This document shows positions 16,460 through 64,000 of a stretch of 64,000 bases of DNA, in pieces. The notes beneath the pieces are model-generated. The model ran no database searches. It saw nothing but the letters and a program-made list of their open reading frames with translations, and had not been told where the DNA came from. The translations under genes and the position numbers were made by a program. Each line of letters begins with the position of its first letter. The stretch's first letter is position 1. The DNA is from Metarhizium brunneum (taxonomy: Eukaryota > Ascomycota > Sordariomycetes > Hypocreales > Clavicipitaceae), in NCBI RefSeq assembly GCF_013426205.1, contig NC_089422.1, forward strand, positions 9,389,001 through 9,453,000, read 5' to 3'.

Positions 16460-16565
16460 GCCTCGACGTTGACAATAACTTCGTGGATACAACACATCAT
16501 CTCATCATTTCTCACACAGCCTTTTCACGGTCAAACTTTCCACTGCAAACACCGTCTTTTACAAT

Positions 16566-36884: not shown

Positions 36885-37194
36885 GGCCGATACGGGCAGC
36901 AAGTCTCATGAGCTGGACTGGCGATGTCAATGTTGCCATGCAGCGGCGAGAAGTAAGATCGACGCGACCAAAGCTGGGGAGAAAACATTGCATGTCAAAC
37001 TGGCTGCCGTCAGCAATGCAAGGAGCCTGATCTGGTTTGGCAGGAGCGATCGACATGTGTGGGCCTTCAATGTTGCCGGGTTCCATGTTTCCAGAAGCTC
37101 TTCTAGAAGCTCCATCATGTACGTTCAACTGTTCAACACGTTCATATATATTTGTTTTCTCAATTATACGCCATCTATTTGTTGATTCGCCATC

Positions 37195-37818
37195 TCACTG
37201 TCCGCCCTGTAGCATATCTACCAGCTCTTTGAACGCACTCTGCAATTCAGCTTCCATCCCATCCTTGCGCCACCGTTCTGTGTCTGCCCCATTGATCTCA
37301 TCGAGCCTTAGACAGTCCTCCAAAGTTTTCGAAGTCACAGTCAATTGCGCCGTGGATTTCGCAACGCGCATCTGCAAACCGGTAAGGATTTGTCGCAGAT
37401 GGTCGGCTGCCTTGCCGCCCCCTTTTCCACCGTACGTCACCACAGCCGTTGGCTTTCCCTTCCACTCATAAAATAGATAATCGAGAGCATTCTTTAAGCT
37501 CGCAGTTATACTCCAGTTGTATTGAGGAGTGACGAAGATGAATGCATCGTAGCCGCGGACAGTCTCTGACCACCGCCTGGTGTGCTCGTTCCTGTAATAC
37601 GGTGTCGGGTCATCCGGGGGTAGGTGAGACGGGATCTCGGGCTCGTCACATAGGGGCAATGCCTGGTCCTGGAGATCTATTGTATTTAGAGCGATGCCAG
37701 TTGGAGATGGCGAGATCGTGTCGCGAACGTATTGCGAAATGAAAGGGTTGAGACGCGGTGCTCGCACACTACAGGTGACAATTGCAATGCGGTAGACTCT
37801 GCCGGTGGTTGTGGCCAT
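37195..37818 (-). CDS. NADPH-dependent FMN reductase, flavodoxin-like fold
   Basis: A 207-residue cytosolic flavoprotein from ATG 37818 (MATTTGRVYRIAIVTCS); ATG 37848 would add ten residues. Family landmarks are YRIAIVTCSVRAPRLNPFIS (phosphate-binding loop, somewhat diverged), FVTPQYNWSITASLKNALDY (the flavin-contact TPQYN motif) and GKPTAVVTYGGKGGGKAADH. It reduces FMN or quinone-like compounds with NADPH. The stop codon lies 310 bp from the start codon of the Zn2Cys6 gene on the same strand, with nothing else between. Confidence 0.88.
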   Translation of the reverse strand: MATTTGRVYRIAIVTCSVRAPRLNPFISQYVRDTISPSPTGIALNTIDLQDQALPLCDEPEIPSHLPPDDPTPYYRNEHTRRWSETVRGYDAFIFVTPQYNWSITASLKNALDYLFYEWKGKPTAVVTYGGKGGGKAADHLRQILTGLQMRVAKSTAQLTVTSKTLEDCLRLDEINGADTERWRKDGMEAELQSAFKELVDMLQGGQ

Positions 37819-39825
37819 CTTGTTCGTAATCTCTGAAGACTTAAACATTATACCCAGCTCCCATCTCCCGAGCATTGAATTTATAGAAAAAAAAATGCAA
37901 TGTGCCTTTTTAGCATTTAGAGTCAAATGCGGATACTGCGGCGGATGGGGCGGATATTGCGGTCCTGCTCATGACATCACCAGACATCAAGGTCTTGTAA
38001 AAGCGTCACAAGGAAGTTATCCACTAAGTCTTGCGAGATCAATCCGTTAAAAGTTAGTACGAATAATCTCTCCGTTGACCGAGCATGTAACCGTTTTGCC
38101 GCCTGGGTGGCATAGTAGTATTCCGAGCATTGAGTATCTTGCGTTTCTGCGGCGTAGCAAAGCAGCCAGCGCACAGTCAACGCGCGAATGTAAGGTTCAA
38201 TAAATATAGAATTCTAATTCTATAGACTGCAAATATTGTCGTGTACGAATAAAAAGTCTTGGGCATGGACAAATGTGGCAACAACTCTCGTGAGCCCCAG
38301 AGATGAGAGTGAAATTTCAGAAGTAGGCCGAGCGTATAAGCCGACAGTCCAATGTTATTATGGCAGTCGGAGTCATTATCACCGTCATAGGATCCAAGCA
38401 AGCTTTTTGATTGGCTACGAGTCGTGAGCATCAAAGCACTCTTGGCTAGTCCGGAACTTCCCATCAGGTCAACGTCGGATATCCATGTCAAATGCGTTGC
38501 AGTCGAATAAAGTAGTACCGCAATACGATTCGAGGGCTTAACTGCTGGTGACTGTACATATGGGTCCTTTGGCTGTTGTACTCACAGCCTTCCTTTTCAT
38601 CTTTTCACGTGAGACTTTTCCCCCACAAATCACGACCCTGAAGAAACTTTGAGCAGCTTCCACAACCCAATTCCGGGGCGCAACATCAGACGCGCATCTT
38701 GGCGCGCGGCTCTTTCCAAGGACAAAGATTCGATATTTCACGGGGCTTTAATGAAGTTTTATGCTGCGGGGACTAATTTTAAGTTGGCGCGGTTTCAGCT
38801 TGCCCGCGGTTGACGAGCCCCTTCATCGTCCACTTGATTGCCAGCGGAGAAGAGCCGGTGTTTGGATGAGTAAGTCTACTGGGAGCTGCACATATACATA
38901 TCGCCGAATACAACTGCTAGCGTAATTACGGAAAATATCTATGTACACCCTTGGGCGTGGCATAGCACGCCCAGTATGTACATATGTACGTAGTTTAGTA
39001 TTTTCGGCTTTAAATCTCCACAGCGTTAAGGACTAAAAGACGTCAATTTGCTGAAGAAGACGATTGTGGTTGTTCTATGCAAGTTGAGAAAAATAGTTCT
39101 ACAAGGCCGGTATCAATCTAGGCTCGATCACAACAACAAACAACCTCATCCTCAACCACCGATGCCGACAAGTAAGGTGGCTCCGCACGCGATTGCACGG
39201 AAAATTTATGAAAAATTTCCGCAGTGGGGATGTGTGTGCATGAATGCGTGGGCCGCAGCGTTATGCATAACAGTCTTGATGGTCTGAATATGAAGAAAGC
39301 GTGCTTGGGTGGAGTGTTATTCATGCACTCTCCAGCGAAATGGCGCAACTATAGTCAGATATTGCAGACAAATTCCAAGTGTTATTGAAGCATTAAAATT
39401 GAAGGGTCTTTGCTTGCACATTTCGCTCCATGTCGGCCTTGGATCCAGGCAGTTGGTAGCTGACGAAAGTAAAGTTTGATGGCACTAGTTCACATACCTA
39501 GGTAGGTTGGCCTTGTCTCTCACAACCCTCGTGGAGTGAGGAAATTAGAAGTCCTATAGTTCGTAGTAAATAGTAATATTGATGAAGATTATGCGTAATT
39601 TCTCACTTTCCTGCACGAGCGGCAGGGACACATTGCACCTTGGGTCAAGGTACCCCAACTGAGCCTATCTCGCAAGCATTTCAACAAGAACGTAGGTTTG
39701 CTAACGTCTTAAATATATCTCGTCTACTCCCCCGTTCTCATGTCCGCAGTCTAGATCCACGTGCTCTCATTCTTGTCACTCTTTTACATTTCTCACACTC
39801 CTTGAACTTTGACATTCTTTTCAAC
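37819..39825. other. Intergenic region, gene-poor
   Basis: About 2 kb, relatively AT-rich, with only short open frames on both strands. A TACCTAGGTAGG word occurs at 39496. I see no supported gene or RNA. Confidence 0.55.
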
Positions 39826-40998
39826 ATGCGAGTCCCTCTTCTTGTTGCCGCGCTGCCTCTTGTCAGTGCTCTGCCTCGAGCTTTGCTGGATAAACGTGCT
39901 GCGGACACGGTTGGTCCTAATCGCGGCAGAGCCGCTGATGTGAGCTGGAATGGACAGAATGACTATTCTAGCTCGCGGGGACGAGATCGTCATCCTAGCT
40001 GGCAAGGCAAAGACCGTGATCCCAGTTGGCAAGGCAAAGATCGTGACCCCAGTTGGCAAGGCAAAGACAATGATCCCAGTTGGCAAGGCAAAGACAATGA
40101 TCCCAGCTGGCAAGGCAAAGACAATGATCCCAGTTGGAACGGACCAGGCTGGTCTGAAGATCCATACCTTCCAGATTTTCCCCAAGAAAATGATCGGCCA
40201 GAAGATAATAATCAGCCAGAAGTTAATGACCAGCCAGAAGATAATAATCAGCCAGAAGTCAATGACCAGCCAGAAGTCAATGATCAGCCAGAAGTCAATG
40301 ATCAGCCAGAAGTCAATGATCAGCCAGAAGATAATGATAAGTCAGAAGACAATGATCTGTCAGAAGATGATTGTCCCCTTGAAAACGACGGTCTGTCAGA
40401 AGACAATGATCAGCAAGAAGACAATGATCAGCAAGAAGATGATTGTCCCGATGAAGACAATACACCCCCGAAACCAAGCGCCACCACCACAAGTGCACCA
40501 GACAAGCCCGTGGCAACGCAAACCGAGCCTGTCGTCTCAGCCACCCCATCACCTACCGAGGTCCCGTCCGGTACCAACAAAGATCTTTATATGCCAATTG
40601 TCGACAAGTGGCTTCGTGCTTTGAGCTTACGCCCACTCAAGTACGACGCTGAGCTGGCCAAGACTGCTCTCCAATGCAGTGAGCTCAGCAACGGAGCCCT
40701 CAAACACCGCGGAAGCAACGCACAGATCATGGCACCCGGCAACGAGACGGCGTTCGAGCATGTCTTTGTAGGTGGCTGGCTTGGCGAGCGATCAGATCTC
40801 TTCCCAGACCAGGAAGTCTGGAGAAACTTTAGCAAGGCATGGAACTACCGGGGTCAGACTGGCCATGCGGACTACTTGGCCGATCAAGGCACATACGACG
40901 ACGGAACACCGCTGAAGCTGACTAAGATTGGTTGCGGCTGGGCAGGGGGCTCGAATGGGGGGCAGCAGTGGAACATGTGGACGTGTGATCTTGCTTAG
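39826..40998 (+). CDS. Secreted SCP/CAP-domain protein with repeat-rich N-terminal half
   Basis: A single-exon gene for 390 residues. The signal peptide MRVPLLVAALPLVSALPRA is followed by a probable kexin site, LLDKR/AAD. Residues about 55-105 are a 9-residue repeat (DPSWQGKDR/N, five full copies and one partial). Residues about 125-210 are an acidic 6-residue repeat (PEVNDQ, PEDNNQ, SEDNDQ variants). After a Ser/Thr/Pro linker, the C-terminal 140 residues resemble fungal SCP/CAP (PR-1-like) domains: PIVDKWLRALSLRPLKYDAE, NAQIMAPGNETAFEHVFVGG, WNYRGQTGHADYL and the ending KIGCGW-14 residues-MWTCDLA. Fungal CAP proteins bind sterols or act as virulence factors; the role here is not known. Confidence 0.78.
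   Translation: MRVPLLVAALPLVSALPRALLDKRAADTVGPNRGRAADVSWNGQNDYSSSRGRDRHPSWQGKDRDPSWQGKDRDPSWQGKDNDPSWQGKDNDPSWQGKDNDPSWNGPGWSEDPYLPDFPQENDRPEDNNQPEVNDQPEDNNQPEVNDQPEVNDQPEVNDQPEVNDQPEDNDKSEDNDLSEDDCPLENDGLSEDNDQQEDNDQQEDDCPDEDNTPPKPSATTTSAPDKPVATQTEPVVSATPSPTEVPSGTNKDLYMPIVDKWLRALSLRPLKYDAELAKTALQCSELSNGALKHRGSNAQIMAPGNETAFEHVFVGGWLGERSDLFPDQEVWRNFSKAWNYRGQTGHADYLADQGTYDDGTPLKLTKIGCGWAGGSNGGQQWNMWTCDLA
39988..40141 (+). repeat. 27-bp coding minisatellite
   Basis: The word CCCAGTTGGCAAGGCAAAGA recurs every 27 bp with a few changes and encodes DPSWQGKD[RN]. In the next reading frame it would give a lysine-rich repeat, which explains a long spurious frame. Confidence 0.88.
40198..40447 (+). repeat. 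18-bp acidic coding repeat
   Basis: Degenerate units such as CCAGAAGTCAATGATCAG recur every 18 bp, some 13 times, encoding PEVNDQ-like hexapeptides, interrupted by two DDCP segments. Confidence 0.82.
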
Positions 40999-44131: not shown

Positions 44132-46310
44132 CTACAGCATAACCTCGAGCAGCATGCCTTTACGCTGCTGAATCACGCGCGATTCCACCATCTCGAGGGC
44201 CCTTTTCAGGTCCGCGACCGTCTTCACTCGGACACCCCTCATCCAGGCTCCGTCGTCGTCAGCCAAACCCCCCCCACCAGCCCCCGACCCGGCCGCCGCT
44301 TCCGCCAAAGCGGCATAGTTTGGCGTCGGGCAAAAGGAAATGTTAATCTCGTCATCAGTAGCGCCGGCAGCAAGGCCGTCGGGGTAGACGAGTTGCGCCG
44401 AGTTGCGAGGCGCCTTCCAGCCTGCAGGTATATTAGCGGACAGCCGTGTGGATTGCCAGTACAAGCACGCTCACCTCCGTTGTTCAACACAATCGTCAGC
44501 ACAGGAATCTCGTATTTGCTCGCAACCCACAGCGCGCTCGAGGGCGCCGCGCACATGAAGCTCCCGTCGCCGACGACCTGGCAAACAAGACTGTGCTGGC
44601 GGGCCTGGTCGCTTTCCAGGTCCGTCAGGGCCATCTTGACGCCGAGGGCGGCCCCGTTGCTCCAGCCGATGCCCGTCGCGCCGCAGTTGATCCAGCTCCC
44701 GGGCCGGCTGGGCTGCAGCTGGTCGGACAGCGTCTGGGCAGCGGTGACGGCCTCAATCACAAACGTCGTCGACTCGGGGAGCGCCGTCTTGAGAAGGCTG
44801 CCAATGTTGGCGGCATTCAGGGGCTCGTCGTCGCCGAGACGAGCCTGGGCCGCGATTTCCGCCAGCCGAGAGGCGTGGACCTTTTCGCGGGCCGCGCCGC
44901 GGGCAGCGTACTCGGGGTCTTGGAGCTGCTTGGCCAGCGCGGCGTCGTTTTTGATATACTCGACAAGCTGGCTGAGTGCGGTGAAGCTGTCGGCCTTCCA
45001 GCGCCCGTGGGCGGGGAAGAAGGAGACGGGAATCTGCTGGTTGAGCGGGTCGCAGTCGACGTGGTAGATGGTGGCGTCGTCGGGGGGCGGGTTCCGGGCC
45101 GGAATCCAGGGCACGTCGCAGTCAAGCAGGAAGACCAGGTCGGTGTCGCGGGTGCACTCGTCGAAGGCGAGGCGGAAGCCCTCGGAGGCGGGGTGCTCAA
45201 AGGGAAAGCACACGTCGCTGCCGCCGGTGTCGTGGACCCTTATGCCGGGGACCAGGTCGGCCAGGGCGACCAGGAGGCCCGGGCAGCGGCGGTCCCGGCC
45301 CGAGTATCCGGTGACGACGAGCGGGCGGCGCGCCTGCACGAGGGCGCGGGCAATGGCGGCGACGGCGTCTTCCGGCAGCGCACCGGGCCCGACGGGCACC
45401 CACTGCGCCTGGTCCAGCGAGTACGGCTGCACCTCCTGGGCGAGCACCTCGCGCGCGCCGGCCACGTAGACGGGGCCCTTGGGCGCGCTGCTGGCGAACT
45501 GCAGCGCGCGCCCGACCGTCTGCTTGACGTTGAGCCCCGTGCGCACCTCGCCCGTGTACCGGCAGTACTGGCGCACAATGGCCTTTTGGTCCGGCGCCTC
45601 CTGCAGCCAGTGCATGTACTCGGTGCGCGAGCCCGTCAGCTCGCCGGCCTCGGTGTAGGGGCACATGCCGGCAAAGATGAAGACGGGCACGCGGCCGACG
45701 CTGGCGTTGTGCACGCCGTGCCCGAGGGCTTGCGTCCCGACGTCGACGTGCACCAGCACGGCTTGCGGCCGACCCGATACGCGCGCGTACCCGTCCGCCA
45801 TGGAAATCGCCGTCATCTCAGCCGGGCATGTGATGATGCGCGGCCACGCGTTGGGCCGTTCCCGCTTGCCCTTGACGATGGCTTCCAGGACCGACGGGTG
45901 GTCGGACCCGACGTTGACAAAACATGCCGTGATGCCGGCCTTTGCAGTCTGGTGTGAGCTATTTCATGTACATGTGAGCCGGTGCGTGGGCGGGGGGGGA
46001 TCTCGTACTTCCCAGAGCGCCTCGAATAGGGCGAACGCGGTCGTGTACCTGGGAGCAAGTGTGAGCCCGTCTGTCCCCCGAGGCCTGCGGCGGTGAAAAC
46101 TGGCACTCACGGCGCTTGCGTCAACTGCGAGGCGGCCATGCTGGCACGGTCCGGGGCCTGGCGCGAATACCGGCTCGTTGAAAAGGGCGCTGCGGGTGGT
46201 GACTCTGGTGAGGGTGGGAGACGTGCGAGTGGGCGGAAGCGACGCGACGCGGCCGAGGGAGGTAGGGGGCGGAAGTGGACTTTGCGTGCCAGGCGAGTGC
46301 GCAATGCCAT
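44132..46310 (-). CDS. Thiamine-diphosphate-dependent enzyme, acetolactate synthase/lyase-like
   Basis: Four exons: 46310-46111, 46048-46009, 45948-44475 and 44421-44132, giving 667 residues. The N-terminus (MALRTRLARKVHFRPLPPSA) is arginine/serine rich without acids for about 45 residues and looks like a mitochondrial presequence. The three domains of this superfamily follow: the PYR domain with the catalytic Glu (E124 in CPAEMTAISMADGYARVSG), a central domain, and the PP domain with GDGS (540-543) followed by WVASKYEIPVLTIVLNNGGW, the metal-diphosphate motif. Relatives include acetolactate synthase, benzoylformate decarboxylase and 2-hydroxyacyl-CoA lyase. The residues that fix the substrate cannot be assigned. 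The gene is GC-rich, so several long false frames overlap it. Confidence 0.85.
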
Positions 46311-46756: not shown

Positions 46757-47936
46757 TCAACGGTACGGCCTGGCAGGGGTCGCTTTGCAGCTGGGTTGGT
46801 CTTGCAGCTCGACGTACTGTGCGTCCCCGTCGGTGGTGCTAAACATGGTGCTCATGAGGCTCTTGGTGAAGTAGGGGTCCGAGGGCGGCTTCCTCCCGTT
46901 CTTCAGCTCCTGGGACTCCTTGAGCTCCGAGCCCGTCGGGCGGCGAGGCCCGCTGCGCGTGCGGTTCTTCTTGCGGAAGAGGACGGCGAGCTCGGGGAAG
47001 CAGACGCACAGGTTGCCCGAGGCGAGCTCGGCGGCGCCCCAGAGCAGGATCTCGGGCTGCTTCCACGACGAGTCCGGGTTGCCGCTGTTTCGGAGGCGCA
47101 CGACGAAGCCGATGGTGGCAAAGATGGGGGCGCTGCTGGGCGGTCAGAGAGGAGAGAGGCTTCTTCGACTGCCGTCAGTCGATCAATGGCAAAAGGCTTG
47201 ACACGTACCACAGGCCGAACGTAAAGGCGAGCACGACGAGGACCCTCTTGAGCCGGTCCATCTGGAGCTTGCGCACGGCGTGGACGGGCAGCAGCAGGAT
47301 CAGGTAGTCGGTGACGGTGTTGAAGGCGCCGCTCACGTTGAGTATGATGTGAATGTCGACGCACTTGCCGGGCACCGAGGGGTTCCAGATCTTGGCGCGC
47401 GGGTTGCACTCGAAAATCTTGACGAGCGACGTGCTGCCGTAGAAGCCGAAGATGATGACGATGAGGGTGACAATGGTCAGGTCAAACTTGCTCCAGCGGA
47501 TGGGCGAGAAGACGCGGCGGTACAGCCACAGCACGGCCAGCTTGGTGACGCCAATCATGACGCCGTACTCGATGGCGGCCACGTTGAACCAGTAGGCGGC
47601 CTGGTGGGCGTCGTCGATGGTGATGTCCCAGCCGTGCTGGCCGCCGTGGTTCGACATGGTGGCTCGCATGATGCCGCAGTAGGCCACGGTGCCGGCCCAG
47701 GCGGTGGTGACGAGGGCGTCCTCGAACAGCCAGACGCGCTTGATGAAGATGCGGACGTAGCTGCGCAGGAGGAAGAAGACGGTGACGAGCGGGATGCATA
47801 TCGCGATGGTGATGTCGGCGAGGTACGCCAGCGACGCCGGGTGCTCGGGGTTCGACACGACGCCCGGCGGCGGCTTCAGGGCCGGCGTGAAGGTGGGCAG
47901 CGGGCTCGTCGACACGCCCGACAGCTGCGGCGCCAT
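46757..47936 (-). CDS. Fungal rhodopsin-domain (Pth11-like) seven-helix membrane protein
   Basis: Exons 47936-47209 and 47135-46757 give 368 residues. After a short extracellular N-terminus there are seven hydrophobic segments: ITIAICIPLVTVFFLLRSYV, VTTAWAGTVAYCGIM, IEYGVMIGVTKLAVLWLYRR, FDLTIVTLIVIIFGFYGSTS, LNVSGAFNTVTDYLILLLPV and others. WNPSVPGKCVDIHIILNVSG before helix six is the signature loop of the fungal rhodopsin-domain family. There is no CFEM domain. The cytosolic tail of about 75 residues is basic. Some relatives (Pth11) sense host surfaces; ligand unknown here. The second splice acceptor is a CAGCAG pair, so two proteins differing by one residue are possible. Confidence 0.85.
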
Positions 47937-48932: not shown

Positions 48933-50585
48933 ATGCATAGCCCAGAGAAACCGCCTGGTGAGGGCCGTCCCTCGCAGCAGGCTCCCAGTGACTCAGAGTA
49001 CGCGGCGACTGAGCCCACTGCGATTGCAACGCTGGCGGACGACGACGTCCTATCAGACGCAGAGGCAGCCAGGCTGATTCGGAAAATCGACTGGCATGTC
49101 CTGCCAATGCTATTTCTGATTTACGTTGTGGCGTTTCTCGACCGGTACGTCGCCCCCCTTTTTCCCCAGAGAAGAGACGCAGAAGCGGTCGACGACGACG
49201 ACGACGGCCGTGTAAGTCGCCCTGAGATGATCCAAATTTGACACCAAATCGCCTGCCTACAGGTCCAATGTCTCCAACGCCCTCACCATGAGCATGCCCA
49301 GGGAGCTCGGGCTGACGGGCCAGCAGCCCAACATCTCGCTGGCCGTCTTCTTCGTCCCCTACATCGTCTTTGAGATCCCCTCCAACCTGCTGATGAAGCG
49401 GCTCTCGCCGCACGTGTGGCTCTCCCTCTGCGTGCTGGGCTTCGGCGTCACGGAGCTGTGCCAGGGCTTCATCCAGGGCTACGGCGGCCTGCTGGCCACC
49501 CGCTTCTTCCTCGGCCTCTTCGAGGCGGGCATCTTCCCGGGCAGCTTCTACCTCATCAGCTTCTGGTACCGCCGGGACGAGTCGCAGAAGCGCTTCACCG
49601 TCTACTTTTGCTCCGTCATCCTGGCCTCGGCCTTTGGGGGCCTGCTGGCCTCGGCCATTGCCAACATGGACGGCGTCCGGGGCAAGAGCAACTGGCGCTG
49701 GATCTTTATCCTCGAGGGCATCCTGACGATTCTGGTGGCCGCCGTGTCCTTCTTCTGCGTCAGCGACTTTCCCCACGAGGCCGCCTGGCTGTCCGAGAGG
49801 GAGAAGCAGGCCGTGCTGAGGAAGACGCGCGCGGGGGACGCCCGGCTCGAGGGCAAGATTACCCGGCGAGATTTAGCAAACTTCTTCACCGACCCCAAGA
49901 ACTACCTGGGCGCCGTCATGTATTTCTGTAAGTGCTTCCCTCCCTCTCTCTCTCTCTCTTCCCCCCCGAGCTGCTGCTGCCGGGAGATGTAACCGCTAAG
50001 CCCCTGCCAGCGGTCGTCGTGCCCGTCTACGCGTTTGCCTACTTCACGCCAACCATTGTCAAGTCGCTCGGGTACGACGTGTTGCAGACGCAGCTCCGGT
50101 CTGTGCCTCCGTTCGCGGCCGCCTTCGGGCTCTGCCTCGTGCTGGCCTACCTGTCGGACCGGACAGACCTGCGGCTGCCCTACGTGCTCGTCTCGGGCGC
50201 CATTCTCATCACGGGCCTCGCCATCCTGCTCACCGTGCACGCCAACTTCTCGCTGCAGTACGCGGGCATCTGCCTCGTCTGTATGGGTGCCCTGGGCGCC
50301 GGCCCGAGCGTCATCTGCTGGTACCTCATGAACCTGACGGGCCACAAGGAGCGAAGCATCGGCTCTGCATGGATGATTAGTTTCGGTAACACGGGCGGCA
50401 TCCTGGCCCCATTCGCCTTCCTGCCGCACGACGCTCCATCCTACCGTCTCGGCTACGCGCTGTGCATGGCAATCAGCGTCCTGGGCATCGTCGCTGCCGC
50501 CTGCTACGCCCTGCTTGTCCTCCGGGAGAGGCGCAGGCTGGCCAGAGACGGCGGGACCAACAAGGCCCATGTCCCGTCGCTGTGA
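48933..50585 (+). CDS. MFS transporter, Dal5/Tna1 (anion:cation symporter) family
   Basis: Three exons: 48933-49144, 49263-49927 and 50011-50585, giving 483 residues with about 12 membrane helices. Family landmarks are RLIRKIDWHVLPMLFLIYV (the ACS-family start of helix one), FLDRSNVSNALTMSMPRELG made by splicing, PYIVFEIPSNLLMKRLSPHV, TRFFLGLFEAGIFPGSFYLI and NWRWIFILEGILTILVAAVS. Relatives import allantoate, nicotinate, biotin or other carboxylates and a few move secondary metabolites. It lies in tandem with a second MFS gene 334 bp downstream and 3 kb from the peptide-precursor locus. Confidence 0.9.
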
Positions 50586-50918: not shown

Positions 50919-52594
50919 ATGGCCGACCAAGGCGGAAAAGATGTCATATCGCGGGATATCGAAGGTACTTTGGCGCAGAGGACGAAGCTGCAGCGTGGGC
51001 TGGACAGTATTGCTGATATCGCATTGTGCCGAGAATAGATGACAACTTGGCGGCCTCGGCCGAAGTAGCATCAAGCTTGTCCAAGGCGAGTTGTCGCCCT
51101 TTTGTGTTGGACTCGTGACCCGAAACGGCTGACTCGACGAATAGGGACGAAAGATATTCATCTCGGCGACGGTCATTCTCCTCAACTTCAACGTCACGCT
51201 GGGCTCCTCGCTCCCCAGCGGCGCGGCATCTACCCTGAATGCCCATTTTGGCATCACGGAAAAGCTCCAAAAGCCGCTGCCTGTGGCCGTGTTTCTCGTG
51301 GGCTATAGTAGGTCCCGCCGCCGGAAGCAGTCTCCAAGCCAGACGACTGAAACCTGACGTCAACGCAGTCTTTGGCCCCATCATCTTTGCCCCCATGTCC
51401 GAGTCCTGGGGGCGCCGGCCGGCCTTTCTGATTTCCTTTTCCATATACACGGCGTTTACCCTGGGATGCGCCCTGGCACCCAACTGGCCGGCGTTCCTCT
51501 TCTTCCGGTTCATGCTGGGGTGCGGCGCGGCGGCGCCCCAGACCGTCTCGGGAGGGCTCTTCTGCGACATCTACGCCGACCTCCGGCCTCGCGGGCTGGC
51601 GGTGACACTGCTGGGCCTCACGAGCAACGTAGGCCCCCTCTGCGGGCCCATCATCTCGGGCTTCACGTCGACGAGGGTCTGGCAGTGGCAGTTTTGGTGC
51701 GCCCTCATCCTCGCCGGCGTCAACTGGCCCATGCTGCTGGCCATGCCCGAGACCTTCCCGCCCGTCCTCAAGGCTCGCCGCATCCGGAATGTCTCGAACC
51801 GTCCGTCGAGCACCCCTGCCGCTGGCAAAGCACCCTTCAACCTTGGGAAGCAGGCGCGGATCCTCGCGCGCCCGATTCGCCTCCTCTCGGAGCCGCTCGT
51901 CTTCTTCACCGACCTCTTCATCCTCTACCAGTACATCATCTTCTTCCTCTACTTCGGGGCGTACCCCGTCATCTTCCGCGGCACGTACGCCATGCCGGAC
52001 GGCATCTCTGCCCTCATGTTCATCCCGACGGGCATCGGCGCCGTGCTGGCCATCGCCATCTTTGTCGCCTGGGACCGGTTTCACAAACGCAGCGCCGACA
52101 GGGGCAAGGCCTGGGCGCTGCAGGAGGAGTACAGGCGGCTGCCGCTCGCGTGCATCGGGGGGCCCCTTTTCGCCCTCTCCGAGTTCTGGCTGGGCTGGAC
52201 CGCTCGGCCGAGTATCCCTTGGGTTGTGCCGGCGCTGTCGGGCATCCCCCTGGGCATCGGCATCGACCTGACCTTTATGGCGCTCAACAACTATCTGACC
52301 GACGTCTACGGCATCTACAGCGCGTCGGCCCTCGCCTCGAGCGTCTTCACCCGCAACGTCCTGGCCGCCGTCATCATCCCCCTGACCACGTATCCGCTGT
52401 ACGAGAACCTGGGGACCAGCTGGGCCTGCACCCTGCTGGGGGGGTTGTGCGTGCTCCTGACCCCGATCTCGTTTGCCTTTATCCGCTGGGGCCCCGTGCT
52501 GAGGGCGCGCAGCCCCTTTTGCCAGAAGCTGGCTCGGGCCGACGGTGACGACCATCGTGGCACCTCGGTGGAAGTGGTGGTGGCGCCTTGTTGA
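50919..52594 (+). CDS. MFS transporter, DHA1 polyamine/drug exporter type (N-terminus unresolved)
   Basis: The conserved protein is encoded by 51151-51307 and 51369-52594, joined by a 61-bp intron (GTAGGT...CGCAG); together about 460 residues. The join reads VFLVGYIFGPIIFAPMSESW, followed by GRRPAFLISFSIYT, the A-motif of DHA1 exporters related to yeast Tpo and Flr1. FRFMLGCGAAAPQTVSGGLF and GLTSNVGPLCGPIISGF are further matches. The 5' end is unclear: ATG 50919 (MADQGGKDVISRDIEG) looks like a typical N-terminus, but between 50985 and 51150 all frames contain stops and I could not place one or two introns convincingly. The region DPKRLTRR near 51115 may correspond to the usual DP..P.NW motif in another frame. 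The gene may be intact or damaged at its 5' end. Confidence 0.75.
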
Positions 52595-53685: not shown

Positions 53686-54687
53686 CTACGGGTTCTCGGG
53701 CAGCGGCACAGCATCCGGCGGCTGATGCCACTCGAACCCGTCCGGGATCGGCACCGCTCGCTGCTTCAACCACGACTGCAGAGCGTCCCAGTCGGCGCAC
53801 TTGTGTCGCGTGTTGCCGTCCGGGGTAGGCTGGTTGTGCTGCCTCACCCAGTAGTACGGGATGATGCCCGGGTCAAAGTTGCACATGAGCGTCTGGCGAA
53901 TGTAGTCGATGCAGTGCTCGTAGTGGCGCTCGTACATTTCCGACGCGCCCTCCTTGTTTGCCTGCGTCGTGGGAAAGAAGGCCGCGTGGTGGTCTTGCCA
54001 GATGAAGTGCAGGCAGTGTATCTGGTGTGTTCCCATGGCCACGGCGAGATACCCGCCCCCGGCGGCCTCGGGGAACTGCACCGCCGTGAGATTGTGTCCG
54101 ATGCGGCTGATGTCGTCGGCCGTGACGCGAATGGTTCCGTCTGTGTGTATTGGCCAAATGTTAGAGCGGGAGGTTTGTCAAGAAACAGCTTGTGCCGTCG
54201 ACGTATGTCCTTACATGCCATGAGATCTTGCCACGCTTGTTCGACCTCGGCCGTTGGCGGTCCTTTGTAAGGCGAGTCGTACCACAAGGACCCGTTGAAC
54301 CTGACGTCTAGATATTCCTCTCGTATCGCCTCGTTTATCGGTGCTATGTCATGCAAATGTTAGTAGTTGGGCATGATGGCTATTTCGGCTTTTGTGGCAG
54401 GAAGAGTTACAGTAATAATTGAATTTGGACACGCAGCTTTGTCGACGTTGAATATAAGATGTGGGCAGAATATATGGAATAAGAAGAATATAGGTGGCCA
54501 CAATCGCTCCGTGAAACAAGAGCCACGGAGCTAGGTGCCTCCAATGATGCCTAGGCTCGGCCAGCTTTCGAAGCCGCTGGTCGAGGAGATGGCCACTGAC
54601 CTCTTCATCGTTGTCTTGCTCGTCGAAATCGTGTTTGCGTGTTTGCTCTGGCGTGTGTTGTCGCCAAAATGAGAATGCATGTTTCAT
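53686..54687 (-). CDS. UstYa-family (DUF3328) oxidase, peptide-modifying type
   Basis: Three exons: 54687-54411, 54343-54215 and 54140-53686, giving 286 residues; intron 1 has a TACTAAC branch site. The N-terminal 50 residues are cytosolic and charged; one membrane segment follows (WLLFHGAIVATYILLIPYIL, about 55-75). The first join gives NYYSPINEAIREEYLDVRFN, matching the family's YSPA.EAI motif. Both metal-binding HxxHC motifs are present: HQIHC at 174-178 and HYEHC at 208-212 (in HCIDYIRQTLMCNFDPGIIP). UstYa-type enzymes are oxidases that cyclise or otherwise modify tyrosine- or phenylalanine-containing core peptides in ustiloxin, phomopsin and asperipin pathways; others act on other metabolites. 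It is divergent to a repeat peptide precursor, which supports a RiPP role. Confidence 0.92.
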
Positions 54688-55173
54688 CTTGGAGGCCAGT
54701 ACGTAGCACAAAGGACAATGTGAAATTGTTTCTCATGTCAACATTGCCGACGGCCGGAACACGTACCACTGGGCAAATTTTCGGGCATCGTTTTGCTTAT
54801 ACTTGGTACATGCATGCCGAAACGGGGTCAGTTCACAAATCGCCCGATCCCAACATGTATCTTGACTTTGCGACGACAAAGTCGTGCGTCTTTCTACTCG
54901 ATGCAACCAGTCGGCCTGCAATGTAACTTCGCAACGGGAAGGTCGTGCAGTTGCCTGATTCCGGGTGGCCATGCTACGTAAAAAGGGATATATATGCCGT
55001 GCTTGCGCGGCTTCTTGTGCTACAGCCCAGCAATGGGCATACTGTCGAAATAATAAACTCCACACAATACAAATAACCTTAACCCGTCTGCATAGCCCAG
55101 GACTACTCTTTTCTTGTTGAGCTAGTCTCTCTCTCTCTCTTTTTGTTTTCACAAAATCCCAACGCTGGTGACT
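54688..55173. promoter_or_regulatory. Bidirectional promoter between UstYa-type and precursor genes
   Basis: A 486-bp head-to-head region. GGATATATATGCC at 54986-54998, about 175 bp before the precursor start, is a likely TATA element for the plus-strand gene. CT-rich DNA at 55123-55144 lies just before the precursor ATG. Head-to-head sharing suggests co-expression of the two genes. Confidence 0.55.
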
Positions 55174-55498
55174 ATGCGCTTCATACTTCCTTTGCTCGCT
55201 ACTCTCGCAGCGGCTGCACCAGCAGGTACGGCATCCCCTCCCCTGATGAAACTCGTGCGTGGGTAGCTCTTGACTGACCAATATTCATCCAGGTGTCTTT
55301 GAGAGCGATAAGCTCTTGACTATTGACAAGGATGGTAAAGACAGCTCCTACGATGTCAACAAGCGCAGCCATTTTGTGGCGGACCCTTTGCTCCAAATCT
55401 CCGAGGACGACTCTGCCAGCTCATACCAGCGCAGCAACTTCAAGGCAGACCCTTTGCTAGAAATCTCGGACGACCCCAATGCTTCATCGTACAACTAG
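55174..55498 (+). CDS. Secreted kexin-processed repeat peptide precursor, RiPP candidate
   Basis: Exons 55174-55225 and 55293-55498 give 85 residues. The signal peptide is MRFILPLLATLAAAAPA. The rest is three 20-residue units that align without gaps and conserve F3, D6, L8-L9, I11 and the ending S18-S19-Y20: GVFESDKLLTIDKDGKDSSY, SHFVADPLLQISEDDSASSY and SNFKADPLLEISDDPNASSY. Unit 1 is followed by DVNKR (a Kex2 dibasic site), unit 2 by QR and unit 3 by N and the stop. Signal peptide plus repeats divided by KR is the architecture of dikaritin precursors and other kexin-processed fungal peptides, and the adjacent UstYa-type gene points to the first. It lacks the cysteines of many effectors. Which residues form the final product is unknown. 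Confidence 0.82.
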
Positions 55499-56074: not shown

Positions 56075-56366
56075 ATGCCATCCTCGGCCTCGATCAAAGC
56101 AAAGGAAAAGTACGAGGCGATGCTTGCCGCGGCAAAAGGCGACGGGGTTTCTCGTAAGTGCCGTCCACCAAAGCAATGACAGCCACGGTTACCCATGATT
56201 TGAGCTAGACATGTCCAACCGCGTCGTCGCAACGAGGCACCCGTCGACTGGAGGCAGCGAGATGACCAACTCCATCACTCGCAGGTCGAGCCAGAGCAGC
56301 GATGCCTCGGGTCACGGCCGCTTCCGAACCATGATTAGAAACATGCTTTCGCCGCCGGCCTACTAG
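56075..56366 (+). CDS. Small basic protein, unrecognised
   Basis: Exons 56075-56153 and 56209-56366 (GTAAGT...GCTAG) give 78 residues: MPSSASIKAKEKYEAMLAAA, then GDGVSHMSNRVVATRHPST and, near the end, GHGRFRTMIRNMLSPPAY. No signal peptide or cysteines; the N-terminal third should be helical. The clean intron with a proper donor and in-frame continuation supports a real gene. It lies 0.6 kb downstream of the repeat precursor, on the same strand. I do not recognise the family. Confidence 0.6.
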
Positions 56367-57712
56367 GATGAGGACGCGTACGGAGAGTGTAGTACAGTTT
56401 GTGAATATATATCCTTTGAGATGCCTTTGGGAGCCGCCGTGTCACCTTGCATCGCGCCGTGTGTCGGGTACACTAGTTTGCAAGCACTTTTCTACGCACC
56501 AGCTTGACAGGGTAGACACGTTACGTAGGCATCTTTGCTGCCAGACAAGGGGTGACGGAGGAGCGCGTGGTATGAGTCCAAACTGAGACCGTCCCGAGAT
56601 AGCCTAGTGAATGCCTGGAATGGGAAGGTGTAATGGCATCAATCGTTGACTACAGACTAAAGTCTTGCCCCAGCTTTGAAAAGACACGTGGTATGCATGC
56701 GAAATGGACTTGAAGCCTTGTTGCTTGTCCGCGCCCGTGTTGTTGCGTCTTTGCAGTATTGACGTCACGGCGCCTGGTGTCGCAAAAGTCTACATATGGC
56801 TGGTAACATGCCTGTCGTGCAGACAGGACACAATTGACTTTAAATGTCAAGTTCACAAGGCCATGATCCTCCGTGTAACTAGCGCTGTTTCTCATTTTTT
56901 ACAGTGGCAGGCAAAGGGTCTGGTATTAACCAGATCAGGTACCTGGCTATCGCGCTCAAACTATAATATACTAGTTGAGCCGTTGGCAACTAACCCACTT
57001 AGTTGTCAACGGGTAAGGCATATTAGTGTATACTTGTCGGTGGGTAAATCTATCCTGCCACCGACTGTTATTTCACTAGCCTACACCAGATGTAATTGAT
57101 CCATGTCCATGTGGCCCGTGGCAGGTCATATGGAACTCGCGACTCCAACTCGCTAGACGCTCGTGTGCCCCGAGGCAAGACATCAGATCCTCGTGCCCGA
57201 CAAGGCGAATGAAACCACTCGAGCCAACGCAGGAACATTCATCGCTCAGGGACGCATCAGCTAGTCCCTGCAAAACTCCCCCACGAATGGCTGATGGCTT
57301 ACACGGCAAAAGCGACTACGGGTACTCGGCACGCCGTGTGCCTCACGTTGTCACTCGACGCTCCTCGGGCTTGTCACGGGGAGGCAATTGAAGATGGATG
57401 ACACAGCTTCATTCCTGTCCATGCAACGTCTCCTCCTAAACGTGGTGCTGTCTCGCGTGTCTCTCAGCTCGCAATGCCGTTCCACGTGTCGATTTGGGAG
57501 CTTGGTATGTAGCCGGGCTCCTCGTGCGCTGGATGGATGACTCTTGTGAAAATGATATATAACACGCCCAAATCGACCGCGGATGGACGATCGTGTATTG
57601 CACATGGTAGGCGATTGCACGTCAAGTTGGTAGTTTGCACTTGTGTATATTCTCTTCCCTTCTCTGTACATGTTACATCTTTTACCGTCTTTATATTGTG
57701 TATATTATCAAT
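56367..57712. other. Intergenic region with a dispersed repeat
   Basis: About 1.35 kb. It holds the longest copy of the dispersed repeat (56921-57059). A TATA-like GATATATAAC at 57554-57563 lies about 150 bp before the chitinase start, followed by a pyrimidine-rich stretch. Confidence 0.6.
56921..57059 (+). repeat. Dispersed repeat, longest copy B
   Basis: Begins TGGTATTAACCAGATCAGGT, then ACCTGGCTATCGCGCTC and ACTATAATATACTA, then a hairpin (TTGGCAACTAA and TTAGTTGTCAA as arms around a short CCCAC loop), and ends GTGTATACTTGTCGGTGGGT and CTATCCTGCC. Parts match copies at 612-678, 17251-17325 and 15143-15174. Noncoding; probably a small non-autonomous mobile element or the end of one. Confidence 0.55.
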
Positions 57713-59260
57713 ATGCATCATCTACGCGCTCTCGTCGGCGTTGGCCTTGCTGGTCTGGCGGCCGGAGTGCCCTTGACTGACAAGACATCAGTCAAGCCGC
57801 GACAAGCACCCGGAGCGCAAAACGTCGTCTACTGGGGGCAGAACGGCGGCGGTACGATCGAGAATAACGACCTCGCGGCGTATTGCCAACCCAATTCCGG
57901 AATCGACGTTTTGGTTCTTGCATTTCTATATCAATTTGGAAATGGCGGCAACATACCTTCAGGGACTATAGGTCAGTTTTATTTTTTTTTAATTTTTTAA
58001 TTTTTTTTAAATTCACCACTCTCATGGAAGCCGAGAGCGTATGGACTCTGGAGAGGCTACGAATCTATCTATACATGTATAGAAATACGCCGCATCTCGT
58101 AGGCAGCAGGCTACCCCCCTGACCAGCTTTTCTATTCATTTTCCCTTTCCCCTGTTTTCGAATGTCCCAGTTCTAACCTCATACAGGCCAATCATGCTAC
58201 ATCAGCACGTCCGGCCAGGGTCAAAACTGCGAAGCCCTGACCGCAGCCATACACACCTGCCAGTCGGCCGGTGTCAAGATCATCCTGTCCCTCGGCGGCG
58301 CGACAAGCTCCTACTCCCTCCAGACACAGGCGCAGGCCGAGCAAATAGGCCAGTACCTGTGGGATTCGTACGGCAACTCTGGAAACAAGACGGTGCAGCG
58401 GCCGTTTGGCAGCAACTTTGTCAACGGATTCGACCTCGACATCGAAGTCAACGGCGGCAGCAGCCAGTACTACCAGTACATGATTGCCAAGCTACGCTCC
58501 AACTTTGCGTCGGACAAGTCCAACACGTACCTGATTACCGGCGCGCCGCAGTGCCCCATCCCCGAGCCCAACATGGGCGTCATCATCAGCAACGCCGTCT
58601 TCGACCATCTCTACGTCCAGTTCTACAACAACAACAACTACACGGTCCCCTGCGCGCTGGGCATCAACGGCAACGCCCCCTTCAACTACAACAACTGGAC
58701 GTCCTTTATCGCCGATACGCCGTCGGCCGGTGCCAAGATCTTCATTGGCGTGCCGGCCTCGCCGCTGGCGTCGACGGGCACGCCCAGCGGCGCGCAGTAC
58801 TACGCCGCGCCGGAGCAACTGGCCGCCATTGTCGGCGAGTACAGGAGCGACGCCCATTTCGGCGGCATCATGATGTGGAGCGCGGGCTTCTCGGATGCCA
58901 ATGTCAACGACGGGTGCACGTATGCGCAGCAGGCAAAGAGCATCCTCGTCAGCGGAGCGCCTTGCGCGTCGTCGGGGCCTCCGAGTTCTACGCCGGCAAC
59001 AGCTCCGGCCCCGACCGCGACCACGATGCCATCTTCGACTTCGGTGTCCTCTCCGACAGCGTCGCCTACCGGCGGCACAGTTCCCCAGTGGGGTCAGGTG
59101 AGTTTTATCCATGTGCTCTTTGAGGGAAAGAAAAATCTCGCGCGGTAGCTCACACAGTGGCGACGTCTAGTGCGGCGGCGAGGGCTATTCCGGTCCTACT
59201 CAGTGCGTTCCTCCTTACCAATGTGTCAAGCAAGGCGATTGGTGGTCGTCATGCCGGTGA
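57713..59260 (+). CDS. Secreted GH18 class III endochitinase with CBM1
   Basis: Exons 57713-57971, 58187-59097 and 59171-59260 give 419 residues. A signal peptide (MHHLRALVGVGLAGLAAG) and a short propeptide ending KPR precede the catalytic domain, which begins NVVYWGQNGGGTIENNDLAA. The GH18 motif FDLDIE is intact, with D169, D171 and the proton donor E173, and LSLGGATSSY forms the substrate-binding strand. After a Ser/Thr/Pro linker, the last exon adds CGGEGYSGPTQCVPPYQC, continuing to WWSSCR: a complete type 1 cellulose/chitin-binding module, whose first WGQ lies on exon 2. Intron 1 is unusually long here (215 bp) with T-rich runs. It degrades chitin of fungal or arthropod origin. Confidence 0.93.
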
Positions 59261-59525: not shown

Positions 59526-60670
59526 TTAGATCTTGCCCTGGACCGCCTGGTCAATCTTGGTGGTCAGGTCCTCGAGCTCAAACTTGGTTCGGTTGCCGGC
59601 GAGGCCGCCGTTCTTGTCGTCGAGGAAGTACTCAATGACGCCGTAGATCTTGTCCTGGATCTGGACAGTGGCCACGGCAAAGCCGCCCTTGTCCTGGGGG
59701 GTGTACGCGCTGGCGATCTTGGTGACAAACTCGGCCGACTTCCAGCCGTCCTTGGAGACGAAGACGTTGGTTCCCTCGGTGCTGAGCTGGGTCAGGAGGA
59801 CCTTGCCGCCGTACTTCTCGGGCAGGTAGACGCCGTCGTCGCCGCTCTCGCCGGTCAGGCCGGTGACGGGGATGACGACGCGCTTGCCCAGGGAGTCGCG
59901 CTTGTTGAAGCTGACGAGCTGCTTGGCCTGGGCGTCGTTGGCGATGAGGAGGTCGCCGCTGGCCACGATGCCCGTGAGGCCGGGCAAGATGGGGCTCGTG
60001 CCGGGCTTGGTGTAGTTGCTCAGGTACCAGGGGATGGCCTTTGTGCCGTCGGCGTTGACCTTGATGATGGCACCGGGGTAGGTGCAGACGACAAAGGTGT
60101 TGCCGCAGGTGTCGTGGACCATGTCCTGGCAGCCCCCGTAGGCTCCGTTGGTGACAGCGGTAAGGTTGGCGTGCCACAGCTCCTTGGGCTTGTCGCCGTT
60201 CAGGTCGACCTTGTAGAGGAAGTTGTCGCCGCTGACATTGGCGCCGGCGGTATCAAAGGCGATGCCGGCGTTGATGGTGACTGACAACTGGTTGGTCTTT
60301 TGGTCAATCTCGACACCGCTGGCGTGGAACTCGGCCACGTCTGTGCGATCAAACGTGATGGTGTCGACGACGCTGTCCTTGGAAACGTCGACGACGGCAA
60401 CGGCGGCGTTGTAGAGCTTGCTAGACGAGGGAATGGTATTAGTTCCACCGACGTTCCCAGCAAGCAACTGCTCTCGCAGACATACCTGAAATAGGTCAAG
60501 CCGTTCTTCTTGTTGAAATCGGCGCTCTCGGGGTAGAGCTGGGGAACGTTGATGATGACATCGGTGCCGGCGGCCGTGTTGCCGTTGGCGCCGTTGGCGC
60601 CGTCGGTAGCCGGCAAAGCACTGGCGACGGCACCCAGAGCAGTCAAGGAGGGGAGGACACCGGCGCGCAT
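59526..60670 (-). CDS. Tri14-like/Mala s 1-type secreted beta-propeller protein
   Basis: Exons 60670-60486 and 60420-59526 give 359 residues. The signal peptide is MRAGVLPSLTALGAVASALP. The spliced join LTYFSKLYNAAVAVVDVSKD and the segments DTITFDRTDVAEFHASGVEI, LSVTINAGIAFDTAGANVSG, AYGGCQDMVHDTCGNTFVVC and YPGAIIKVNADGTKAIPWYL match the family of Fusarium Tri14 and the Malassezia allergen Mala s 1, six-bladed propellers. Tri14 sits in the trichothecene cluster but is needed for virulence on plants rather than toxin synthesis; the biochemical function is unknown. No other trichothecene gene is present here. Convergent with the chitinase, stops 265 bp apart. Confidence 0.83.
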
Positions 60671-62748
60671 TGTGAATATGTGGTAATGAATGGACAAGTT
60701 GTGCTAAAGAAAATGACAATGAGTGGAAAGATGGTGCCAAGGTGTTTGTTGGAGTTGGAGTTGGTGTGATGGTGATGAGGTATATTCCCCGGGTTAGGAG
60801 GAGACATTGTCAACAATATATATCCATTCGATAATATCATCACAGGGTCTCTTGAGTCGCCAACCCGGGCGTGTAAGCCGAGTGGGAGCCAAGAAGTTTC
60901 TAACAGGAAGGCCAGTTGAACCATGATGTGCGCCCAAAGTTGGCGGCTTGAGTCAGCACCGCGCTTGACGATTGCTGAGCCACAACCCGAATCAAGCAAA
61001 TCGCGGCCTTGTGGGGTCCATGGTGTGCGATGAAACCTTGTCCGCAATCGAGGCAGTTACGAAAAGGTCACTGGATGAACAAATACGGCTACTATCAATC
61101 TTCAGCCCCTGCTGCCAAGTGCTCATGCCTCATGGGTCATGGGTGCTCCATGTTCTACGCGTAATGTGTAGCCTTACTGCTATGGAGAATCTTACGATTA
61201 TGCCGCTTGCATAAAGTGCCCCGATGCGCCGAAATGAAGGCAGATGCTATTCATGTTATCAAGATGGAGAGTGACGTGGCAAGGGTAGCACGTTGCCGCC
61301 GCGCAGATTGATTGATGGCATAATATTGACTGCATATGCTCATCATGTAAATACAGTGAGTGGGTCGTAGGTAATTCCGAGCAAACATTGAAGCCCTCAT
61401 CAATAATATACAAGACGTGTCAATCCGGTGGGACTCACTTGTATTAATGAGATTAAAACATCTTTTTCTCTTGGCGCCATATATTTATTATTAACTAGGC
61501 TCTAACATGATGAATAGTCCAGATCAAGGAAAGAATGCGTACACGATTCGTCCACACTCGCAACCGTTGACCCCTTTTCGAGTCAGTGGCCACCAGACCA
61601 GACCGTCTCAGAATTTAGCCACCCAAGTGGGCGAGTTTCAATATACGGCCCGGTTGTGTCGGTCGCGCGCGTTGACTAATGACGGACAGCGCTTGAGAGT
61701 CGATCCTCCGGTGGGATCGGGCGGCCGCTTGACCATTCTCTCCCTTGTTCCGTATTTATGGCAGGGAAGAACATCGTCGTGAGTCTTCACCAGGGGCTGA
61801 CGCGCCGCAGAATGCATCGCAATAGGAGTATAGTCTGTCGCGGAATATTTGCCTACCAACAAGGAGTCAATAGCATGCGCGAATATGCCGTGGTATATTC
61901 TATGTACTAGTATAGTTCCGTGGCCGGGTACCTGCTCCTACTCATGGCGTGCTCTCGGCAATTTGCGAATCCTTCCGTCATCTTGGCGATGCTCACGCTG
62001 CCAGCGGCTCCTTGGGGCTGCATCGAGTCAAGCGACACGAACCACACGGAGATGCAAATTTGGGACGACTGCGCTTTGACGCCACCATCTTGTCGACTCG
62101 CCACGACGCTTGAGATGAGGGAACGGTGGCGCGGGACTCCCGCACAGGAGGAGAGAAAATTGCAAACGTGCACCGGACGTCTCTGGCCGACTCCGTGGTT
62201 GCGCTGCCACCTCGAACCCGTACCCAGGCTGGAACAAGCAGCGCTGGCCCTTTCCCAGTACATGTATAATATTGACCATTTGAAGTTGCATGACGACGCG
62301 GCTAGGCGTAGCGTTTACTCTCATCAGGGACACCCGCTCGCTATTTGGGTGGAGGCCATCGACGGATCTACCGAGCCGTGGAACATGAACTTGATGATCA
62401 AGTCAATTGCCGTTTGTGGACAAATGCCTCGAGTTCATCTTTGTTACTTGCTGACCCTATGTATGATCCCTGCATCCCATCCGTGCAGGCGCGTGCTACG
62501 TAAACATGGTGTTTTGTCATCACGACGGCCAAGAGCGTGCCAACTTGACAAGTTATCCCACAAGCAACGCCGTTGCCTTCACCTGCAGCAGCTTCCTGTT
62601 TCCATCCTCATGGCCACATTGGCTGTTGGCTTCACCTTGTTCTTACATATTGTGAGGCACAAAGTTGATAGATGGGAGGATGACATGTACGCCAGGCAGT
62701 ATTCTCTATCCAGAGCTGTAGATGGGCTCGGCTTTCTTGTCAACTGGT
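60671..62748. other. Intergenic region with a long unexplained open frame
   Basis: About 2.1 kb. An open frame of 296 codons runs 61920-62810 on the plus strand (first ATG 61944) but shows no family features, signal peptide or splice-supported extension and overlaps the hydrolase remnant. I do not call it a gene. No RNA gene or repeat was recognised. Confidence 0.45.
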
Positions 62749-63369: not shown

Positions 63370-64000
63370 CTATGTACAAGCTACTTTGTCCGGCCTCACA
63401 AGGCTGAACGTGGCATCGTCCTGCGGAGTTGCGTTCAAATAGGGTGATACACGGCTGGCGTGCTCGTCGCTCGAATACTTCGCCTTCAATATGGAATAAG
63501 CCAGTCGTCGAGCACCTACGGCTGCATTCCTCGCTCGTCTGACCATTTCGTTGGGCCCGCACAAGCTGACGCCGACATCACATCCAGCACGCTGCTCCTC
63601 GAGTCCCTGAAAGACACTATCAAGATCTGGCCGGCCTAGTGAGATGGTCCACCATGTAGGCATGGACTCGGTGTTTTCTGCACGGCTTGTTTCCTCTTGT
63701 TGGCTCGTGGCTTCTGTGCTACCGGTTTCTGTGTGATGCGGCGAGATGGACAGCCTGACCGTCGACCCTGGCTGTGATGTCACGTCATGGAGGGCTTGAA
63801 GTTCCTTCTTGAACCAGGCTGAGTGCTGAACGCTTTTGACCACCCAGATAAGGTGGATGTCGACAATGCCCGGCGGAAGGGTAACGCTGCGTCTGGTCAA
63901 AGAATGCCGTAAGGAAACGATTGATGACATGGTGCTAACAGCAGGAGTAATACCGATCCCACTCGCACTTAACACGACAACAGAAGACGAATCAAAGTCC
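63370..64000 (-). CDS. Ferric reductase/NADPH oxidase-like flavoprotein, C-terminal part (runs off the right edge)
   Basis: About 210 codons, the frame staying open to the window edge. VVLSASGIGITPAVSTM is the pyridine-nucleotide-binding GxGITP motif of the FNR/ferric reductase fold; VDIHLIWVVKSVQHSAWF is the next strand (the family's W.vR.. motif); VSLCGPNEMVRRARNAAVGA carries the CGP motif that stacks on the nicotinamide. A Ser/Glu/Thr-rich insert lies between the last two. In full-length relatives, six membrane helices binding two haems and an FAD domain precede this part; they must lie beyond position 64000. The likely role is reduction of Fe(III) at the plasma membrane or a related electron transfer. 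The last 25 residues are not conserved in the family. Confidence 0.75.
   Translation of the reverse strand, partial: DFDSSSVVVLSASGIGITPAVSTMSSIVSLRHSLTRRSVTLPPGIVDIHLIWVVKSVQHSAWFKKELQALHDVTSQPGSTVRLSISPHHTETGSTEATSQQEETSRAENTESMPTWWTISLGRPDLDSVFQGLEEQRAGCDVGVSLCGPNEMVRRARNAAVGARRLAYSILKAKYSSDEHASRVSPYLNATPQDDATFSLVRPDKVACT

Follow-up and report, generated by a model that had tools for sequence, protein, structure and literature searches.

Two described systems come closest to the gene pair reported here. Dikaritin precursors are described as carrying core peptides parted by dibasic kexin sites (PMC9769878), and section 13 of PMC7329392 defines a KEP by at least three repeats of at least eight residues lying between KR, KK, RK or RR. 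That survey covers 7878 KEP genes, of which 22% have a DUF3328 neighbour within the nearest 15 genes, most often as the adjacent gene, and Tyr occurs in 65.6% of the repeats of KEPs near DUF3328 versus 38.2% of the others (PMC7329392). The UstYa proteins perform cyclisation and also desaturation of peptide residues (PMC10512285), and they are active outside RiPPs too, in polyketide and nonribosomal pathways (PMC12048977, section 22). The general idea is already covered by two surveys (PMC6339444 and PMC7329392). The locus described here is absent, among the matches listed, from titles on Metarhizium with UstYa or RiPP and on dikaritins, in a literature that is mostly non-subscription and with supplements aside; six locus tags are named in no paper found in the same, mostly non-subscription, literature.

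The locus lies in a stretch of 64,000 nucleotides of the Metarhizium brunneum genome (37.77 Mb in 7 contigs). This stretch, C1:9389001-9453000, is the window, and features within it are given in its own positions. A UstYa-family (PF11807, former DUF3328) oxidase gene on the minus strand (53686-54687) and a gene for an 85-residue repeat precursor on the plus strand (55174-55498) stand head-to-head with their start codons 486 bp apart. The spliced models thereby confirm the divergent pair that an earlier note on this DNA had described. We think it somewhat probable that the two genes form a minimal UstYa-type locus for a modified peptide, a candidate at this level, and we infer the secretion, processing and oxidation of that peptide as well as any bioactivity.

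The oxidase gene has three exons (54687-54411, 54343-54215 and 54140-53686) separated by introns of 67 and 74 bases, both GT..AG, and encodes 286 amino acids. Its Pfam UstYa match reaches 162.2 bits, where the cut-off is 25, for a 287-aa query that is off at the exon 2/3 joint relative to the 286-aa model. Both HxxHC motifs that had been read in it are present, HQIHC at residues 174-178 (54013-54027, minus strand) and HYEHC at residues 208-212 (53911-53925, minus strand). In an alignment of 24 of the 43 relatives matched at E 1e-20 or better, both histidines and the cysteine of the first motif are invariant (24/24), and the second motif is invariant as a whole in all 24. The closest named relative is the M. 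majus protein, which is 95% identical to the window protein and against which the identities in that alignment were taken. The family has a membrane helix near the N-terminus, and a hydrophobic stretch that looks like one is found there by eye. A structure model of the M. majus protein, poor as a whole (mean pLDDT 60.9, pTM 0.43), contains a helix at residues 30-89 with pLDDT above 90 at 51-70 and places both HxxHC motifs on predicted helices. Among solved structures, the M. majus sequence had no match, and the UstYa profile gave a single match at chance level (sizzled, E 0.36). A DUF3328 enzyme is said, in the title of a 2025 paper, to be copper-dependent.

The precursor gene has two exons (55174-55225 and 55293-55498) around a 67-base intron. 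This splice is supported by the database proteins of two relatives, M. humberi and M. album, which are also 85 residues long with the same layout; the window protein is 96% identical to that of M. humberi. Exon 1 (55174-55225, plus strand) encodes an apparent signal peptide (residues 1-17), judged by eye from a hydrophobic N-terminus that ends in APA, and a likely cut after APA would leave unit 1 starting at G18. Three gap-free units of 20 residues follow on the plus strand: unit 1 (residues 18-37, 55293-55351, its first codon split by the intron), unit 2 (residues 43-62, 55367-55426) and unit 3 (residues 65-84, 55433-55492), the last followed by N85 and the stop codon. The units had been said to be parted by KR and QR. 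Both joints are there, with the amendment that units 1 and 2 are spaced by DVNKR, units 2 and 3 by QR, and unit 3 is followed by a lone N. The KR (55361-55366, plus strand) is the only dibasic, kexin-type joint, and the QR (55427-55432, plus strand) is not dibasic.

The best off-diagonal repeat score of the window precursor is 82 versus a shuffle maximum of 43, none of 2000 shuffles reaching 82, and the two relatives score 85 and 66 versus shuffle maxima of 45 and 44. When units were compared with one another in the three proteins, eight of the nine comparisons were reached by 0/5000 shuffles and the ninth by 1/5000. By this score, which is our own and not that of the Umemura 2020 paper, the units are tandem repeats; with the spliced model and the two 85-residue relatives, this upholds the proposed precursor of 85 residues and three 20-residue units. 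Seven of the 20 positions are invariant in the nine units of the three proteins (3 F, 6 D, 8 L, 9 L, 18 S, 19 S and 20 Y), and these include the Phe3 and the terminal Ser-Ser-Tyr that the earlier note had called conserved. Position 11 is Ile in the six units of the window and M. humberi proteins and Val in the three M. album units; since the split runs by species, it appears that the three units change together. The residue right after Tyr20 is D, E, Q or N in 9/9 units. A whole-genome search for a second copy matched only the precursor itself, and the precursor profile had no match among solved structures.

In M. album, the UstYa gene is MAM_06632 and the precursor gene is MAM_06633, and a longest contig of 410266 bases is listed for both. 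Since the tags are consecutive and apparently on one contig, the two genes are very probably neighbours in that species. Precursor homologues without any UstYa gene nearby had been named beforehand as the finding that would speak against a joint pathway; M. album, the one relative that could be checked, has both genes under consecutive tags, so the joint-pathway reading comes through this check. For the oxidase, the 90% cluster carries the name of M. majus alone. Gene order is often kept within a genus, so the M. album neighbourhood may be plain synteny. The shared upstream region of 486 bp between the start codons in the window (54688-55173) contains a TATA-like palindrome (54985-54998) and two plus-strand copies of a 23-base element (54865-54887 and 54926-54948), which are 78% alike and 61 bases apart. 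A pattern spanning both copies, with up to three mismatches allowed, had one other site in the genome, on C6, and the backwards control had none. The duplicated element is possibly a shared regulatory site.

The two genes differ in how far their relatives reach. A single-sequence search for the precursor returned two protein clusters among three candidates, and a profile of the three precursor sequences, which drew 46 candidates with E values as high as 10, returned the same two clusters. Both clusters carry Metarhizium names, and the first has 9 member sequences, for the other members of which the species is not given. Neither search found a relative beyond Metarhizium, although an unannotated small gene in M. 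rileyi or Pochonia would look like absence, and in viral contigs none of 14 pattern matches was confirmed. UstYa relatives are present in M. rileyi, Pochonia, Hypoxylon and many other fungi where no precursor relative turned up. On the earlier note's proposal to look in fungal genomes for the precursor beside UstYa genes, these searches give the M. album pair, a precursor found only in Metarhizium and an oxidase that is widespread.

Identity to the M. majus UstYa protein is 78% in M. rileyi, 74% in M. album, 73% in Pochonia, 65% in Hypoxylon, 60% in Clonostachys and 51-65% in three lichen fungi, and the lowest among the 24 aligned is 46%. The named relatives beyond Metarhizium and Pochonia (Xylariales, other Hypocreales, Elaphomyces and lichen fungi) are 48-66% identical to the window protein, and the paralogues in its own genome are distant, at 25-42% by fragment. 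A tree with 28 rows unites the window protein and the 24 relatives (99/97) and leaves three paralogues from the window's genome outside, on very long branches; each of these paralogues was entered as a single open frame, and the bootstrap values had yet to stabilise. We infer that the relatives are orthologues.

Between units 2 and 3, the window precursor has QR and its M. humberi and M. album counterparts have ER; the joint is non-dibasic in 3/3 proteins. With KR followed by QR or ER, the precursor does not have three repeats between dibasic sites, and it falls outside the KEP rule because of its second joint. By the description of the dikaritins, only one of its two joints is of the dibasic kind that lies between cores; the clustering of a precursor with a UstYa gene is seen in the window and from the tags in M. 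album. The break of the dibasic rule at one joint is why classing the precursor as a KEP and the locus as a dikaritin cluster was rejected. The kexin cutting claimed in the earlier note fits the KR after unit 1, which is found in 3/3 proteins, and not the second joint. The same note had held that the ustiloxin, phomopsin, asperipin and epichloecyclin pathways are built from exactly this pair, which is an overstatement because only one joint fits kexin. There is evidence of Kex2 processing at sites with other P2 residues (PMC2515848), so a cut at QR is possible but cannot be assumed.

At least 13 UstYa neighbourhoods over the cut-off, the window's included, are found in the genome when matches are grouped by position. 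Around 10 of the 12 others, 20 kb was inspected and scanned for KR/RR-delimited repeats, and KR-spaced repeat precursors, read as open frames and not as spliced models, were found at three of these ten. Such pairs are thus a known style in this genome. The first, at C3:177191-177454 (plus strand), has the KR-spaced repeat APQGSFIWDWAKSEAHKNEKR with units APQGSFIWDWAKSEAHKNE, Trp-rich and without Tyr. The second, at C3:123689-123988 (plus strand), has the KR-spaced repeat QVDVDGVATRSGWGYIKARDEKR with units QVDVDGVATRSGWGYIKARDE. By our own grouping, each of these precursors, at C3:177.2 kb and C3:123.7 kb, lies among three UstYa genes. The third, at C1:5227843-5228088 (minus strand; C1:5227.8 kb), has six nearly identical repeats of the DKTVEDYFIGADKR type next to a UstYa gene and is an EDYxIG precursor of the ustiloxin/phomopsin type. 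The window precursor is missed by the KR/RR scan because of its QR joint, and a scan without the KR requirement reports it. Among the upper rows of the scan, those at 16667-16966 and 40316-40552 of the window and those in opposite or shifted frames near C3:177.2 kb were dropped by eye as alternative frames of repetitive coding DNA, and the lower-score rows were dismissed as noise. Two further repetitive frames were seen in the window. One (16479-17228, plus strand) is secreted-looking, with near-identical tandem repeats of 57 residues that bear Cys, and its only Pfam match is a chance-looking one to interleukin-13. The other (39586-40995, plus strand) has the short repeats DPSWQGKDN and then QPEVND before a weak CAP-domain match, at 22.0 bits versus a cut-off of 21.1.

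Leftwards, the UstYa gene lies tail-to-tail at about 1.1 kb with an MFS transporter gene (51239-52594, plus strand; Pfam MFS_1, 89.9 bits). The N-terminal exons of that gene look incomplete by eye, and it may be a truncated or unusually spliced copy. We rejected counting it into the pathway, of which it may or may not be a part. Continuing to the left, Pfam identifies a second MFS gene (about 48934-50585, its domain within 49276-49929), a fungal rhodopsin-domain gene (47190-47480) and a TPP-dependent enzyme gene (44242-45963) about 7.7 kb from the UstYa gene. Further left are an FMN reductase (37198-37968) and a Zn2Cys6 regulator (35157-36905), beyond which the genes are of housekeeping type. 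To the right are a small gene (about 56075-56366) with no Pfam match, a frame with a below-cut-off match to Mala_s_1 (59529-60809) and a ferric-reductase-type NAD domain (63373-63999). At about 57714-59100 (plus strand), the translation (VVYWGQNGGG...) resembles the beginning of a GH18 chitinase; the first open frame there, 57611-57997, taken alone has no Pfam match. No tyrosinase, methyltransferase, peptidase, polyketide synthase or nonribosomal synthetase was found by Pfam among 34 window proteins, which are mostly bare open frames with introns ignored, so that intron-broken genes could escape.

If the two genes work together, the small protein would enter the secretory pathway by way of its apparent signal peptide, which is judged by eye and presumably removed, and kexin would cut after the conserved KR. 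The UstYa enzyme, which is probably anchored in the membrane, would then use its two HxxHC motifs to oxidise one or both parts, as the function of the family suggests. The most plausible site of oxidation is the invariant Tyr20 of each unit. Speculatively, Tyr20 could pair with residue 11, which is beta-branched (Ile or Val) in every unit, or with the serines just before the Tyr. At the Arg that parts unit 2 from unit 3, a protease for which one basic residue suffices might cleave; otherwise the second product would be a 43-residue double unit. The divergent pair, the M. album tags, the invariant Tyr, the units changing together and the precursors at three of ten other UstYa loci all argue for this reading, as do the survey figures on DUF3328 genes near KEPs and on Tyr in the repeats of those KEPs (PMC7329392). 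Against it are the non-dibasic second joint in three of three proteins, the UstYa relatives for which no precursor was found, the possible synteny, the UstYa roles outside RiPPs and the lack by Pfam of a tyrosinase, methyltransferase or peptidase among the 34 window proteins.

A different view of the same facts is that the gene encodes a plain secreted repeat peptide of the signal or effector type, which is processed and not oxidised, and that the UstYa enzyme serves something else. That precursor relatives turned up only in Metarhizium (two clusters), with UstYa relatives widespread (43 matches at E 1e-20 or better), suits this view. It is also suited by the 6120 of 7878 KEPs for which one survey finds no DUF3328 gene within the nearest 15 (PMC7329392) and by the several KEP-derived peptides described as linear (PMC9769878). 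The consecutive tags in M. album and the Tyr that is invariant in 9/9 units argue the other way, and we consider this explanation unlikely, while giving it real weight. More doubtful is a view in which the UstYa group performs an ancient, conserved task independent of the precursor, such as a step in some other small-molecule or peptide pathway, and an orphan gene arose beside it in Metarhizium. That would fit the identity of 48-66% among relatives versus 25-42% for fragments of own-genome paralogues, and the position of three paralogues outside the group in the tree; 48-66% is much conservation for the partner of a fast-changing peptide. UstYa proteins do occur in non-RiPP clusters (PMC12048977, section 22), and the TPP-dependent enzyme gene is a candidate link. 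On the other side, Pfam finds no polyketide or nonribosomal peptide synthase in the 34 window proteins, mostly bare open frames, and the fact that M. album has kept the small gene speaks for a retained function. Finally, a chance origin, in which repeats came about by accident in an open frame neighbouring a UstYa gene, has only the small size of the gene in its favour; it is extremely improbable given the 0/2000 shuffles and is already refuted because two relatives carry the same protein.

Under the preferred reading, in which the two genes cooperate, this would be a very small and easily tested peptide pathway in an insect-pathogenic genus. A standard genome screen, by the rule it applies, leaves out such a precursor, and UstYa substrates would not be confined to cores between dibasic sites. 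For the widespread UstYa relatives, substrates could be sought beside the gene. A bolder generalisation, which we offer as conjecture and think rather improbable, is that an old oxidase, found from Hypocreales and Xylariales to lichen fungi, serves secreted peptides with units of about 20 residues and few dibasic joints. Their precursors, changing fast and breaking the KEP rule, would be missed by screens, and the Metarhizium pair would be the first visible case.

The likeness of the locus to described systems is partial. With the dikaritins (ustiloxins, phomopsins, asperipin-2a and victorin, and the epichloecyclins), it shares an apparently secreted repeat precursor beside a UstYa-family gene and an aromatic residue in each unit, which in the window is Tyr, as in most dikaritins. 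Asperipin-2a also has one UstYa gene (PMC7329392). The window precursor differs from those of the dikaritins in having one dibasic joint only and no YxIx core, and the larger dikaritin clusters differ in having the tyrosinase, methyltransferase or peptidase genes that Pfam does not find among the 34 window proteins. With the KEPs (Le Marquer 2019, Umemura 2020), it shares an apparent signal peptide and similar tandem units, and it differs in breaking the rule of at least three repeats between dibasic sites (PMC7329392, section 13). The loci at C3:119-126 kb, C3:175-181 kb and C1:5226-5228 kb of the same genome differ in having KR at the joints seen by the scan and units unrelated in sequence to those of the window precursor, one of them with EDYFIG, a pattern of the ustiloxin type. 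What they have in common with the locus described here is a repeat precursor that lies at most a few kb from UstYa genes. Two of these three have repeat periods of 21 and 23 residues, close to the 22 of the window precursor, so the idea that a 20-residue unit is of odd length was rejected.
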